Below, in pieces: positions 31,175 to 50,923 of a stretch of DNA of 64,000 bases (positions within the stretch are counted from its first letter, which is position 1; the number at the start of each line of letters is the position of its first letter). Made by a program: the position numbers and the translations under genes. Source of the DNA: BD2-11 clade cluster bacterium bin43 (GTDB taxonomy: Bacteria > Gemmatimonadota > Gemmatimonadetes > Longimicrobiales > Gaopeijiaceae); the NCBI GenBank assembly GCA_002238605.1, contig MPMR01000001.1, positions 186,001 to 250,000 of the forward strand, written 5' to 3'. The notes below the pieces were generated by a model that was given only the letters and a program-made list of their open reading frames with translations, did not search any database and had not been told where the DNA came from.

Positions 31175-32455
31175 CTACGAGCGCCGCCCCAGAAGACGAT
31201 CCAGCTCCTCGGGCGACAGCGAATCCGCGGACTTCGACCCGAAACCGCGCCCGGATCGGGGATGCCGCCGCCCCGAACCGCCATCCCGCGGCTCGACGGG
31301 CGTCCCGGCGTAGTCGAACTCGGGCAGATGGATGCGCTCCAGGGTGCGTCCCAGCAGGAGTTCTATGGACTTGAGGTACGCCAGATCCGGCGCGGTCAGG
31401 AAGCTGACCGCCGTGCCCGCCGCGCCCGCGCGCGCCGTCCGGCCGATGCGGTGGACGTAGTCGCCGGGGTCGAGCGGGATGTCGTAGTTGACCACGTGCG
31501 AGATGCCCTCCACGTCCAGACCCCGCTGGGCGATGTCAGTGGCGACCAGCACGCGCACGCCTCCGGTCGCGAAGCGGTCGAGCGCCCGCACCCGATGCCG
31601 CATCTGGCGGTCGGAGTGCATGACATCCACCGAAATGCCCTCGCCCTTCAGCCGGGTGAGCAGCATGTCGGCGCCGCGCTTGGTCCGGGTGAAGACGAGC
31701 ACCTGGTCCCAGCCCGGGCCGGACAGAAGCCGGACCAGCAGATCCGCCTTCTTCCCCGGCTTGACGGAATACACCCGCTCGTCGATTCCCTCCGCGGTCG
31801 TTCCGGAAGGCGCCACCTCGATGCGCACCGGGTCGCGGGTGACCTGTAGCGAAAGGGCGTGAACGCCGTGCGGCATCGTGGCCGAGAAGAGCATCGTCTG
31901 GCGCTCCCTGGGCACCCTCCTGAGGACGCTCTCGATCTGGGGACGGAAGCCCATGTCGAGCATGCGGTCGGCCTCGTCCAGCACCAGAAAGCCGACCCGG
32001 CTCAGATCTGCCTGCCCGCGGCGCATGTGATCGATGAAGCGCCCGGGGGTGGCGGCGATGAGTTCCGTGCCGGTCGCGAGCGCGGCGCGCTGCGGTCCGT
32101 AGCCCACCCCGCCCACGATGCAGGCGCTTCGCAGGGTACTCCCGCGGGAGAGCGCCACTGCCTCACCCAGCACCTGCTGCGCCAGTTCGCGGGTGGGGCA
32201 GAGCACGAGTGCCTGGAGACCGTCGCCCGGGACCGCGCTTTCCAGCACGGGCAGGAGGAACGCCCCCGTCTTGCCGGTCCCGGTCTGGGCGATGCCGACG
32301 ATGTCCCGGCCTTCGAGCCCCGGCGGAATCGCCAGCCGCTGCACCGGCGTCGGCAGGCTCCAGCCCAGCGCCTCAACGGCGGCGAGGGTCTCGGGGGATA
32401 GGCTCAAGTCCCCGAACGATGTAACTTCCGGCGTCCCGCCGTCTTCCGCATTCAT
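31175..32455 (-). CDS. DEAD-box ATP-dependent RNA helicase (RhlE-like)
   Basis: The 426-aa product has the complete motif set of an RNA helicase. It begins with the Q motif (FGDLSLSPETLAAVEALG, PTPVQ), followed by motif I AQTGTGKT, Ia PTRELA, Ib TPGR, motif II VLDEADRMLDMGF and III SATMP. Domain 2 has VLVFTRTKRGAD, motif V VLVATDIAQRGLD and VI HRIGRTARAG. A basic, Gly/Arg-rich tail follows. It unwinds short RNA duplexes, probably in ribosome assembly or RNA decay. An alternative ATG at 32485 would add 10 residues and run into the divergent phosphatase gene; the ATG at 32455 is preferred. Confidence 0.93.
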   Translation of the reverse strand: MNAEDGGTPEVTSFGDLSLSPETLAAVEALGWSLPTPVQRLAIPPGLEGRDIVGIAQTGTGKTGAFLLPVLESAVPGDGLQALVLCPTRELAQQVLGEAVALSRGSTLRSACIVGGVGYGPQRAALATGTELIAATPGRFIDHMRRGQADLSRVGFLVLDEADRMLDMGFRPQIESVLRRVPRERQTMLFSATMPHGVHALSLQVTRDPVRIEVAPSGTTAEGIDERVYSVKPGKKADLLVRLLSGPGWDQVLVFTRTKRGADMLLTRLKGEGISVDVMHSDRQMRHRVRALDRFATGGVRVLVATDIAQRGLDVEGISHVVNYDIPLDPGDYVHRIGRTARAGAAGTAVSFLTAPDLAYLKSIELLLGRTLERIHLPEFDYAGTPVEPRDGGSGRRHPRSGRGFGSKSADSLSPEELDRLLGRRS

Positions 32456-32488
32456 CTCCGATATCAGCCTCAAGTGCTCTCCCATGGC

Positions 32489-33001: not shown

Positions 33002-34139
33002 GCAGGTCGTCGGAGGTCGCGAAGCTCATGCGCGCGTAGCGGTCGTCGCCGAAGGCCGAGCCCGGGACCAGGGCCACGCCGGCCTCCTCCAGCACGCGGG
33101 TGCAGAAGTCGCTCGACCCCTGGCCGGGGCCACAGGCCGAGTCCACCCGGAAGAAGAGGTAGAAGGCGCCGCCGGGCTCCACGAACGACAGCTCGGGCAG
33201 GAGCTCGCGCATCAGGGAGACGACCAGGCGCTGACGCCGCCTGTACGCCTTCGCCATCTGCCCGATGTCCTCGAGCGAGCGCTCCACGTTGCCGTAGGCT
33301 GCGAGCGCCGCAAGCTGCGACGGGGTGGCGGGATTGGAGGTGGCATGGCTCTGGAAGGCGGCCATCTTCTTCGCGCCGGCTCCCTCGCTATAGGAGAAGC
33401 CGATGCGCCATCCGGTCATCGCGAAGGCCTTGGAGACGCCGTCGATGAGCACGAAGGGACCGACGTCCTCCGGGTCCAGCTCCAGGAGCCCCGGCGCCGT
33501 CCCGTCGCCGTCGAAGTGAATGTGGCGGTAGATCTCGTCGTTGATCAGGCGGACGTCGTTGTCCCGGGCCCAGCGCGCCACTGCGGCGAGTTCGGCGCGC
33601 GTGTAGACGGCTCCCGTGGGATTGCTGGGCGAACACATGATCAACCCGCGGGTGCGCTCCGTGCGGGCGGCCTCCAGGTCCTGGGGACGAAGCAGGAAGT
33701 TCTTCTCCGCGGGCCCCTGGACGAAGACGGGCTCGGCGCGCGAAAGCGTCACCATCTCCGGATAGCTGGTCCAGTAGGGCGAGGCGATCATGACCTCGTC
33801 GCCCGGTCCGAAGAAGGTGAAGCAGGCGTTGAAGAGGGCCTGCTTGGCCCCGGCGGTGACCACCACGTCGCCCCAGGCGGCTTCCGCGCCCCGCGCGACG
33901 AGCGAATCCGCGATGGCGGCGCGCAGCTCCGGCATTCCGGCGGCAGGGGTGTAGCGAGTGGCGCCCGCACGCACCCCCTCCACGGCCGCATCCACCAGCC
34001 AGGACGGGGTATCGAAGTCGGGCTCGCCGGCGCTCAGGTCGATGATATCCCGCCCTTCCGCGCGCAGGCGCTTCGCAAGCGAGCTGACGGCCATGGTGGC
34101 GGACGGCTGGAGTCGGGCGACGTTCTCGCTGAATGTCAT
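32955..34139 (-). CDS. Class I/II PLP aminotransferase (aspartate aminotransferase-like)
   Basis: The 394-aa product is a fold-type I aminotransferase. The N-terminal SAGEPDFDTP motif, the substrate/cofactor Asn segment SPSNPTGAVYTRAEL, and the Schiff-base lysine in LIDGVSKAFAMTGWRIGFSY are all present. This pattern matches the AspB/AspC-like group that includes prephenate and aromatic aminotransferases. It probably interconverts aspartate or aromatic amino acids with 2-oxoacids. The gene is convergent with the LMW phosphatase and overlaps its 3' end by 47 bases. Confidence 0.9.
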   Translation of the reverse strand: MTFSENVARLQPSATMAVSSLAKRLRAEGRDIIDLSAGEPDFDTPSWLVDAAVEGVRAGATRYTPAAGMPELRAAIADSLVARGAEAAWGDVVVTAGAKQALFNACFTFFGPGDEVMIASPYWTSYPEMVTLSRAEPVFVQGPAEKNFLLRPQDLEAARTERTRGLIMCSPSNPTGAVYTRAELAAVARWARDNDVRLINDEIYRHIHFDGDGTAPGLLELDPEDVGPFVLIDGVSKAFAMTGWRIGFSYSEGAGAKKMAAFQSHATSNPATPSQLAALAAYGNVERSLEDIGQMAKAYRRRQRLVVSLMRELLPELSFVEPGGAFYLFFRVDSACGPGQGSSDFCTRVLEEAGVALVPGSAFGDDRYARMSFATSDDLLSEAIRRMARVLEGG

Positions 34140-34324
34140 GGGCGGCGGATCGATGGGAAGGGACGGTCGGCAGGGGATTCGCCCCGGGGACGCTCCCGCC
34201 CCGGCGCGCCACCAAGTTGCCCCGGAGAGCGCCGGCGATCAAGCGGCGAAGCGAGCGCGGCGGAACGGGGCGGCGGTCATGCGCCGCGTTGCAGCACCTT
34301 GCGCGGCCCGCGAGATTCCGCCCC

Positions 34325-34906
34325 ATGGAGGAAGCCGAGGTCATCTTCTACTTCGACTATGTCGATCCCGCGTGCTACCTGCTGGACCAGGTGCTCCGCG
34401 CCCTGGTACCGGACGGGGTGACGCTGGCCCGCCGTCCGTTCGAGCTCCGACGCCCCCCGTTGCGGCCGATCGACCCCGAAACCGAAGCGTGGCAGGCCCG
34501 TTGCCGGGCAGTTCGAAGGGGAGCGGTGGACTACGGGCTGGCGATACCGATTCCCCTCCGGATGCCGTGGAGCCGCAAGGCGCACGAGTTGTGTCTGCAC
34601 GCGCGCGCGAAGGGTTGCTGCGAAGCGATGCATGCGGCACTGTTCCGGACGTTCTTTGAAGGGAAGGCGGACATCGGCCGCATCGACGTGCTGATCGCGC
34701 TGGCGGAAGAGGTGGGGCTGGACGCCACCGAGGCGAGGGCGGTGCTCGATGTGGACCGCTACGCGGCGGAAATCGAGGAGATGCGCGAGGCCGCGCTGCG
34801 CGGCGGAGTACGGGGACCGCCCACGGTCGAGGCGGGCGGCCGCAGACTCGAAGGGCTGCCCGACCGCCGCGAACTGCTTCGCTTTCTCCGCGCGACCGCA
34901 TCCTGA
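34325..34906 (+). CDS. DsbA-fold oxidoreductase-like protein lacking CxxC
   Basis: The 193-aa product belongs to the DsbA/HCCA-isomerase (FrnE-like) thioredoxin-fold group. It begins with VIFYFDYVDPACYLLDQ, where the family usually has CxxC or S-x-P after the first strand. Only one Cys is present, so a disulfide-exchange role is doubtful and a glutathione-transferase-like or isomerase function is more likely. The C-terminal segment RGGVRGPPTVEAGGRRLEGLPDRRELLRFL has the cis-Pro loop (GPPTV) and the conserved final helix of the family. The ATG at 34325 was chosen because the first strand begins there; longer in-frame starts exist upstream. Confidence 0.72.
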   Translation: MEEAEVIFYFDYVDPACYLLDQVLRALVPDGVTLARRPFELRRPPLRPIDPETEAWQARCRAVRRGAVDYGLAIPIPLRMPWSRKAHELCLHARAKGCCEAMHAALFRTFFEGKADIGRIDVLIALAEEVGLDATEARAVLDVDRYAAEIEEMREAALRGGVRGPPTVEAGGRRLEGLPDRRELLRFLRATAS

Positions 34907-34971: not shown

Positions 34972-35274
34972 ATGGCCGGATATCAGAGGAAAACGGCGCT
35001 TTCGCCGGCCGGAGTGATGGCGCGGGCCGAAGAGATCCTCCCGGACCGTGTCGGGCTGGCCCGCTCCCGGGGTTCGTCGCACGAGGCGACCTACGCGGGC
35101 GAGGAGGGAACCCTCACGCTCACGGTTCACCGCCACGGGATGTATACGTCGGTGACCGCCTCGACGGACCGGCTACGCACCTCCCGCATCGACTACGAGA
35201 TCCAGAAGTTCCTCAACAACCTGCCCTACGAGCCGGGTGACAAGGGCGGGCCGGGGTCCGGGGATCCGTCCTGA
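34972..35274 (+). CDS. Hypothetical protein
   Basis: I do not recognise this 100-aa protein. It is soluble, has a central beta-rich block (EGTLTLTVHRHGMYTSVTA) and an acidic/Gly tail. An ATG at 34972 is preceded by AAGAGAGGCAG, a fair ribosome site. It lies 2 bases before the GTG of the pseudo-helicase gene, which suggests cotranscription and a possible shared RNA-related role. Confidence 0.62.
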   Translation: MAGYQRKTALSPAGVMARAEEILPDRVGLARSRGSSHEATYAGEEGTLTLTVHRHGMYTSVTASTDRLRTSRIDYEIQKFLNNLPYEPGDKGGPGSGDPS

Positions 35275-35276
35275 TC

Positions 35277-36902
35277 GTGGACTCCTTCGAGGAACTCGGT
35301 CTCCCGCCGGAGCTGGTGGAAGCCCTTGCCGCCGAGGGCATCGAGCGCCCCACTCCGCTGCAGAGGGATGTGATCCCGCTTCTTCGGCGCGGCAACAACG
35401 CGCTCGTGCGGGCCGGGCCGGGCAGCGGAACGCTGGTGGGGTACGGTGCGCCCCTGCTCGAGCGGGTCGACGCGGGGGGAGCGATGCCGAGGGCGGTCGT
35501 GCTCACCGCTTCGGCGGCGGCGGCGGCGGCGCTGGCAACCTCCCTCGGGCGGCTCGCGATCGCGACCGGACACGCGGTGGCTGCCCTGGGATCGCCCTGG
35601 GCTTCCCCGGAACGTTCCGACATCCTCTTTGCCACCGCCCCCGACCTGCTTGCGACGGTGCAGAGTTCCCGGCTGCGACTGGAGGACCTTCGGGCGCTGG
35701 TGGTGGACGGGGCCGCGACCATCCAGCGATCGGACGGCCTCGATGATCTCGAGACGCTGATCGCTTTCCTGCCGGCGGCGGCGCAGCGGGTCGTTGTTTC
35801 GCTGCCGATCACCCCGGAGGTGGCATCGTTCGCGCGTGCGCACGCCAGAAAGGCGGGGCACGTGGCGGGATCCGGCCTCCCGTCGGAGGCGGAGGCGGGG
35901 CCGGTTCGCGGCATCATCCGCTATCGCATCTGCCGCAAGGATGATGTCGATATCGTTCGAACCGCGTCCGAAATCCTGGAAGAGGGCGCGCGCCACGTGC
36001 TGGTCTTCTGCGCCTCCGACGATCGTGCCGCGGATGTGGGCGATCTGCTGTCGCTGCACGGCTTCCAGGCGGGCGCTGTGGGCGATCCCGACGCGCCGAT
36101 CTGGCTTTCGGCCGAGGACGACGGCACCGGACCCTCCATCCTCGAGGGGATGGAGGGCGCGGGGGGGGTCGCGACGTTGAGCGTCGACGTGCCGGCCGGG
36201 GCCGATGCGCTGCATCGTCGACACGGTCCGGGAGGCACGGCCGCGGTGCTGGTGCTGGGTCGGGAACTGGCGCACCTGAAGGCGATCGCGGCCGAGGCGG
36301 GCTGCAGCCCGCGACCGCTTCCGATACCTCCCCACACCCACACCCACTCCGCGATTGAGCGCAGGCGCTCCGAGCTGCTCCGCGTTCTGGAGAAGGAAGA
36401 CCTCGCCTCGGAAATGCTCCTTCTGGCCCCGGTGTTCGAGCGCTACGACCCGGTGGAGGTTGCGGCGGCCGCAAGCCGCCTGGCGGGACGGGCCGCGAAG
36501 AACCCCGCGGCGCATGGCAGGCGAGGCGGAGCAGAGCCTGGCGGGGACGCCGCCAGACCCGGGTCGCCCCCGGCCGCGGTCGAGCTTCCGGTTCGCGCCA
36601 AGGCCTGGGTACGCCTGTTCATGAGCGTGGGCTCGCGGGAGGGAATCGGACCGGGCGACCTGCTGCAGGCCGCCGTGGACGCGGCCGGAATCGAACGCGG
36701 ACAGGTAGGCAGAATCGAGATCGAGGAGACCTTCACCCGCGTCGAGATCCGCCAACAGGTGGCTGAAAAGGTGGTTCGCGCCCTGAACGGAACGACTCTG
36801 GGCGGGCGCAGCGTGCGGGTGGATTACCACCGCGAGCCCGCGCGCGGCCCTTCCCGGCCGAAGGGCGGCCCGGGCCGCCGGCGCATCAAGCCCCGGTCGT
36901 GA
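35277..36902 (+). CDS. Degenerate DEAD-box protein with DbpA-like RNA-binding domain
   Basis: The 541-aa product keeps the fold and order of a DEAD-box helicase but has lost the catalytic residues. The Q-motif region (RPTPLQRDVIP) is recognisable. Motif I, normally A-x-T-G-S-G-K-T, reads AGPGSGTL (46-53), motif II is DGAA (144-147) instead of DEAD, and SAT is SLPIT. The motif VI region lacks H-R-I-G-R. Domain 2 has VLVFCASDDRAADVGDLL. From about residue 460 comes a DbpA-type RRM (AWVRLFMSVG, later VEIRQQVAEKVVRALNG) and a basic tail. It probably binds rRNA or another structured RNA without ATP-driven unwinding. The GTG at 35277 follows the preceding stop by two bases. Confidence 0.85.
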   Translation: MDSFEELGLPPELVEALAAEGIERPTPLQRDVIPLLRRGNNALVRAGPGSGTLVGYGAPLLERVDAGGAMPRAVVLTASAAAAAALATSLGRLAIATGHAVAALGSPWASPERSDILFATAPDLLATVQSSRLRLEDLRALVVDGAATIQRSDGLDDLETLIAFLPAAAQRVVVSLPITPEVASFARAHARKAGHVAGSGLPSEAEAGPVRGIIRYRICRKDDVDIVRTASEILEEGARHVLVFCASDDRAADVGDLLSLHGFQAGAVGDPDAPIWLSAEDDGTGPSILEGMEGAGGVATLSVDVPAGADALHRRHGPGGTAAVLVLGRELAHLKAIAAEAGCSPRPLPIPPHTHTHSAIERRRSELLRVLEKEDLASEMLLLAPVFERYDPVEVAAAASRLAGRAAKNPAAHGRRGGAEPGGDAARPGSPPAAVELPVRAKAWVRLFMSVGSREGIGPGDLLQAAVDAAGIERGQVGRIEIEETFTRVEIRQQVAEKVVRALNGTTLGGRSVRVDYHREPARGPSRPKGGPGRRRIKPRS

Positions 36903-50850: not shown

Positions 50851-50923
50851 TGGGGTGTAGCTCAACCGGCAGAGCGCCTGGCTGTTAACCAGGAGGTTGG
50901 AGGTTCGAGCCCTCCCGCCCCAG
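50851..50923 (+). tRNA. tRNA-Asn (GTT)
   Basis: The 73-base sequence folds into a full cloverleaf. The acceptor stem pairs TGGGGTG with CGCCCCA (one G:U pair). The anticodon stem CCTGG/CCAGG encloses loop CTGTTAA, giving anticodon GTT, and the T arm contains GGTTCGAGCC. The CCA end is not encoded. It lies 219 bases from the DUF5916-type gene. Confidence 0.97.

Follow-up and report, generated by a model that had tools for sequence, protein, structure and literature searches.

The window analysed here, a 64-kb stretch of Gemmatimonadota DNA, encodes a 541-aa protein that has the domain order of a DEAD-box RNA helicase and whose catalytic death is well supported by the state of its motifs across orthologues. 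The first-pass annotation had described this gene by itself; judged from alignments, profiles and a tree, it belongs to a class-wide family rather than being one odd gene. We think it reasonably probable that the protein acts as an ATP-independent, dimeric RNA-binding scaffold whose acidic core docks partners, probably in connection with rRNA and ribosome assembly.

The gene and its setting

The pseudohelicase gene occupies positions 35277-36902 of the forward strand and comprises 541 codons with no internal stop, as the first-pass annotation had described; it has a GTG start. A 534-aa ORF lies antisense to it, and since long open frames are frequent in this GC-rich DNA, length alone is no proof of a gene. 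Within the genus, the orthologues are 77-78% identical, full-length and uninterrupted, apart from one that is cut in two where a contig ends; most genomes of the family likewise have full-length, uninterrupted orthologues, at 34-49% identity, and 50 of 51 family genomes contain a match at E 1e-50 or better (hand count). Over nine distinct genomes of the genus, dN/dS calculated by the Nei-Gojobori method is 0.26 for the whole gene, with 0.19 in RecA1, 0.37 in RecA2 (which evolves relatively fast within the genus), 0.27 in the linker and 0.11 in the RNA-binding domain (RBD); the neighbouring genes give 0.13 (RhlE), 0.09 (aminotransferase), 0.10 (100-aa gene) and 0.20 (channel). The uninterrupted full-length orthologues and the dN/dS of 0.26 confirm that the ORF is a real gene and, together with the family matches, rule out a chance frame in GC-rich DNA. 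A local pseudogene with intact orthologues is likewise ruled out, as none of the orthologues in the clade is intact. The first-pass annotation had named intact orthologues combined with relaxed selection on this copy as one observation that would speak against its reading; no intact orthologue was found, and dN/dS lies well below 1. As estimated from codon substitutions, purifying selection is acting on the helicase core as well as on the RBD. An Rfam search of the window returned no RNA element at the locus, its only match being a tRNA at 50851-50923.

Directly upstream and co-directional lies a conserved gene for a 100-aa protein (34972-35274, forward strand), separated from the pseudohelicase gene by 2 nt. 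The same arrangement recurs in nearly all family loci, where the gap has a median of 11 nt over 41 loci and several loci have a 1-nt overlap; these short gaps and overlaps suggest that the two genes are probably translationally coupled. Outside the genus, conservation is higher in the 100-aa protein (63-77%) than in the pseudohelicase (37-48%), and RTS, LPYE and D90 are invariant in its alignment. Searches of Pfam and of PDB sequences gave it no convincing match and no match, respectively; its predicted model has a helix-grip or KA1-like fold, with sub-threshold similarity, and we regard it as a candidate conserved partner of the pseudohelicase. An intact RhlE-like DEAD-box helicase, which the first-pass annotation had placed about 3 kb away, is encoded at a distance of 2.8 kb on the other strand (31175-32485). 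In searches of the genome, this was the only canonical DEAD-box RNA helicase found, and the 541-aa protein the only protein with a DbpA-type RBD. Family synteny conserves the 100-aa gene and then also the aminotransferase, phosphatase and RhlE genes. More distantly, several loci of host family f4 (f1-f11 are working labels for host families) keep the channel gene downstream of the pseudohelicase gene, and in three f6/f7 loci the aminotransferase gene is still found at a similar distance. Also upstream, a fast-evolving gene (34133-34906, forward strand; dN/dS 0.40) encodes a DSBA-fold protein (PF01323) with the N-terminal motif DPACYLL and no CXXC.

Catalytic motifs and predicted fold

The motif states were read by alignment with the intact RhlE-like neighbour, and conservation was counted over 93 distinct orthologues of the same family; all features below lie on the forward strand. 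Motif I reads AGPGSGTL (residues 46-53; 35412-35435), with T52 at the position of the Walker Lys, which is found in 0/93 orthologues. Motif II reads VVDGAA (residues 142-147), so that D-G-A-A (residues 144-147; 35706-35717) replaces DEAD and G145 takes the place of the Glu; in the family this position is G, Q or D and never Glu (0/93), and the first, metal-binding Asp (D1) is present in only 66/93. SAT of motif III is replaced by S-L-P (residues 175-177; 35799-35807), the motif being always S-x-P-like, with Thr changed to Pro (P177) in 93/93. Of motif VI there remains an LHRRH region (36204-36227) with one Arg (R315), the two arginine-finger positions of HRIGRxxR being deleted in all 93. The reading of motifs I to III given by the first-pass annotation is thus borne out and extends to the whole family. 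Its statement that the motif VI Arg residues are gone applies to both arginine fingers but overlooks R315, and its summary that all catalytic motifs are lost goes too far: the Walker Lys, the Glu, SAT and the arginine fingers are missing, whereas the Q motif (F4 in 92/93, P25 and Q29 in 93/93) and the P-loop glycines (G49 and G51, each fixed) are kept. RecA2 carries new conserved, family-specific residues, namely the nearly fixed D249, A251, D253, D256, G262, W276, P306, R315, H316 and H333, together with R329 and E330. In the intact DeaD-type paralogues of the same class, the catalytic residues are present in 12-13 of 13 sequences.

Pfam returns a weak DEAD match (residues 26-175, E 1.5e-8), no Helicase_C match and a DbpA RBD (PF03880, residues 446-515, E 2e-19) for the 541-aa protein, while the AlphaFold model (pLDDT 88, with 57 orthologues in the alignment) is confident in both lobes, the helical domain and the RBD. 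RecA-like lobe 1 (residues 1-200; 35277-35876), recognised by PF00270, retains F4, P25, T26 and Q29 of the Q motif, and lobe 2 (residues 201-350; 35877-36326) is net acidic, with motifs IV-VI replaced. A helical domain follows (residues 351-415; 36327-36521), modelled at 356-414 with helices at 356-408, which aligns with the C-terminal helices of CshA (5ivl), its dimerisation region, in a profile alignment that covers CshA residues 1-426 at E 5e-47. A disordered linker (residues 416-443; 36522-36605; pLDDT below 50 at 419-441) then leads to the RBD (residues 444-518; 36606-36830) and to an Arg/Lys-rich C-terminal tail (residues 519-541; 36831-36899) with a net charge of +8 (orthologue median +7). 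The helicase fold order, RBD and basic tail reported by the first-pass annotation are therefore all found. Searched with Foldseek, the model matches DbpA best (E 4e-24), then CshA, DDX6, Hera and eIF4A; the overall TM-scores, at about 0.4 when taken by query length, are modest, a result that we put down to the lobes being placed differently in the model, and these DEAD-box matches predict that the helicase fold is kept.

As medians over families rather than surface calculations, the net charge of RecA2 is -7 in the pseudohelicases versus +2 in the intact paralogues, and that of the C-terminal tail +7 versus +1. Within the RBD, V477-G478-R479-I480 (36705-36716) appears, by pattern, to occupy the position of the turn through which Hera and YxiN bind guanine with their main chain, V477, G478 and I480 (76, 92 and 91 of 93 sequences) putatively corresponding to the guanine contacts V461/G462/V464 of Hera and I436/G437/I439 of YxiN. 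The RNA-binding features of the pseudohelicase, namely the basic tail and the guanine-turn positions, would thus be concentrated at its C-terminus.

Ancestry and stages of decay

The first-pass annotation had proposed selection for an ATP-independent role in a protein with a DbpA-like RRM; the proposed role agrees with the retained RBD and the dN/dS of 0.26, but the ancestry has to be revised. The ancestor is best seen as a dimeric helicase of the DeaD/CsdA/Hera type, with the order RecA1-RecA2-dimerisation domain-RBD-basic tail, because the helical domain aligns with that of CshA and the family is sister to intact DeaD-type paralogues. This replaces descent from DbpA, which is disfavoured by the helical domain and by the same sister relation. 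In both Foldseek and NCBIfam the best neighbour is DbpA, and the C-terminal RBDs of DbpA and YxiN belong to the same Pfam family, PF03880; however, DbpA is an active enzyme without the helical domain, and the DbpA equivalog NF008744 scores the pseudohelicase at 96.1 bits against a cut-off of 524. In Hera, the core is followed by a dimerisation domain, an RBD and a basic tail that contains five arginines (PMC3695512), and dimerisation of Hera, CshA and CsdA goes through such a domain (PMC7721647). All three, CsdA being DeaD, share RecA1-RecA2-dimerisation domain with the pseudohelicase, and in Hera and CsdA an RBD and a C-terminal tail follow, as they do here (PMC3695512, PMC7721647). Unlike the pseudohelicase, which lacks the Lys, Glu, SAT and arginine fingers, these proteins are active ATPases with all motifs. 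By its alignment, the pseudohelicase has the dimerisation-domain architecture, from which we infer that it dimerises.

A DbpA-RBD protein was found in 106 of 119 genomes of the class, usually in one copy, and the named relatives are Gemmatimonadota MAGs, many of them labelled Longimicrobiales or Gemmatimonadales. Forty further RBD proteins of the class fall into two clear-cut groups, 32 being degenerate and 8 fully intact; one of the 32 has the string DEAD without GKT or HRIGR. In a maximum-likelihood tree rooted on RhlE, all 33 sampled degenerate sequences form one clade (support 100/100), sister to the intact DeaD-type paralogues and covering most sampled families of the class, although its stem of 0.7 is long enough for branch attraction to be possible. 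The subclades track host families, a mixed f6/f7/f10 group being the exception. In profile comparisons, the more decayed families align with the pseudohelicase family along almost the whole protein (E 1e-40 to 1e-68), and the f4, f67 and f10 profiles score better against it than against the intact paralogues. Tree, profiles and synteny agree in pointing to a single origin of the degenerate family. A general replacement of DeaD by the pseudohelicase is ruled out, as the two occur together in several genomes of the family and of the order.

The degree of motif loss differs between lineages. Among sequences from the two remaining families of the order (f2/f3), 8 of 16 keep the Walker Lys, as do 4 of 5 from class family f9, the motif II Glu being absent from both groups; in 20 sequences of f4/f6/f7/f10, the Q motif is lost as well. 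No sampled family yielded an orthologue with the motif II Glu plus the motif VI arginines. Orthologues from f3 and f9 (e.g. L059, L064, L077 and L079) have an intact GSGKT, no DEAD Glu and no motif VI, and might be intermediates able to bind but not hydrolyse ATP. In f4, f6, f7 and f10 (e.g. L087, L095, L105 and L083), the P-loop is mostly lost, and beyond the RBD the proteins are hardly recognisable as helicases; some class copies comprise only about 400-480 aa. A DbpA-RBD protein was found in none of the five sampled genomes of f5 (G060, G063, G070, G073 and G076), some of which are incomplete, and the pseudohelicase may be absent from this family or lost in it. The locus also occurs on four public MAG contigs labelled Gammaproteobacteria (L127, L130, L131 and L166), the first three at 77-78% identity and with the same gene order; these contigs look like mislabelled Gemmatimonadota.

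Proposed function and known pseudohelicases

The pseudohelicase lacks what the DEAD-box mechanism needs for ATP hydrolysis, and an ATP-independent role is the simplest reading. An ancestral dimeric DeaD/CsdA/Hera-type DEAD-box helicase would have duplicated early in the Gemmatimonadota class, and one duplicate would have become unable to hydrolyse ATP, with the catalytic Glu and arginine fingers going first and the Walker Lys later, probably more than once. This degenerate copy would have kept the two-lobe fold, the helical dimerisation domain and the RBD. In the dimer, the RBD and basic tail would hold a structured RNA, which is probably rRNA in the course of ribosome assembly, and the acidic RecA core would offer a docking surface on which protein partners, for example the intact RhlE or the 100-aa protein, are recruited or positioned. 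The RBDs of Hera and YxiN bind 23S rRNA around hairpin 92 (PMC3695512), and Utp25, functionally the nearest analogue, takes part in ribosome assembly, which makes rRNA the likely RNA; 23S rRNA as the target, suggested by the first-pass annotation, is plausible only by RBD homology. Dimerisation, RNA binding, the rRNA target and the protein partners are thus all putative, and synteny with RhlE and the 100-aa gene is no proof of interaction.

The fixed Q motif and P-loop glycines mean that the core could bind nucleotide and be more than a scaffold. A sensing switch, in which adenine nucleotide bound without hydrolysis sets the lobe position and the binding of RNA or partners, would explain why these residues are nearly invariant while adjoining catalytic residues vary, and why the Walker Lys persists in half of f2/f3 and most f9 sequences. 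We nevertheless consider it rather unlikely, as the Walker Lys is missing here, the metal-binding Asp is unreliable, the retained residues may serve folding only, and loss of the Q motif in f4/f6/f7/f10 precludes a class-wide function of this kind. Somewhat less doubtful is that the protein is devoted to an active helicase, notably the RhlE-like neighbour, as its cofactor or regulator, acting by direct contact and using RNA binding for recruitment. Most family loci with sufficient flanking sequence carry RhlE on the opposite strand at a distance of about 3-10 kb, it is the only canonical DEAD-box RNA helicase found in the genome, and a helicase-cofactor role is proposed for Utp25 (PMC9539457); however, the intervening genes are unrelated to RNA, local gene order is generally conserved in the lineage, which makes proximity weak evidence, and the conserved neighbours observed in divergent families of the class were the aminotransferase or the channel, not RhlE.

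The progressive motif loss, from f3/f9 with the Lys kept through f1 to f4/f6/f7/f10 without the Q motif, and the shortened class copies could also be expected of a decaying relic, a dying helicase of which the RBD alone is useful. This reading is disfavoured as very improbable, given the low dN/dS of RecA1, the new near-invariant RecA2 residues D253, W276, P306, H316 and H333, the strong matches in all but one family genome and the confident prediction of both lobes. Scarcely credible is an active ATPase that uses alternative residues: the glycine loop and Q motif are retained, but no conserved substitute for the Glu, Lys or arginine fingers is found at the lost positions, the motif II Glu position varies among G, Q and D, and motif VI is deleted. 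Returning to the preferred scaffold, we would entertain only tentatively an extended form of it, in which a class-wide RNA pseudohelicase not described before acts in ribosome assembly, the binding of RNA or of partners is gated in less decayed lineages by a non-hydrolysing adenine-nucleotide pocket, and living genomes display the stepwise loss from the Glu and arginine fingers through the Lys to the Q motif last.

Of the two closest known parallels, one is yeast Utp25/Def of the SSU processome, which, according to PMC9539457, likewise combines a conserved, DEAD-box-derived fold of two RecA lobes with vestigial motifs and is proposed to be a scaffold or helicase cofactor, as we propose for the Gemmatimonadota protein. 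It differs in being eukaryotic, in acting in small-subunit assembly and in having its accessory sequence at the N-terminus; a C-terminal DbpA-type RBD, present in the Gemmatimonadota protein, is not mentioned in the text consulted, and the two proteins presumably arose independently. The other, PriA of Deinococcus radiodurans (PMC4504706, as described in PMC9539457), is likewise a bacterial protein with a helicase fold; its ATPase and unwinding activities are negligible and it still binds nucleic acid, but it belongs to another helicase family and acts in DNA replication restart. Utp25 is counted in PMC9539457 as only the second proposed pseudohelicase. Of the features by which that paper defines pseudohelicases, motif loss is seen in the sequence of the Gemmatimonadota protein and a helicase fold in its predicted structure, and a retained biological function without catalysis is indirectly supported by purifying selection. 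In the open-access literature the term is rare, being found for yeast Utp25, for Deinococcus PriA and in one passing mention, and our search of it returned nothing on a bacterial DEAD-box pseudohelicase or on the Gemmatimonadota family. If annotated by fold or best hit, such proteins would be called helicases. A bacterial DEAD-box-derived pseudohelicase family that persists in most sampled families of a class, with intact paralogues and decay intermediates, would permit direct tests of how a helicase fold can be used without ATP and of which catalytic residues can go first and which later.
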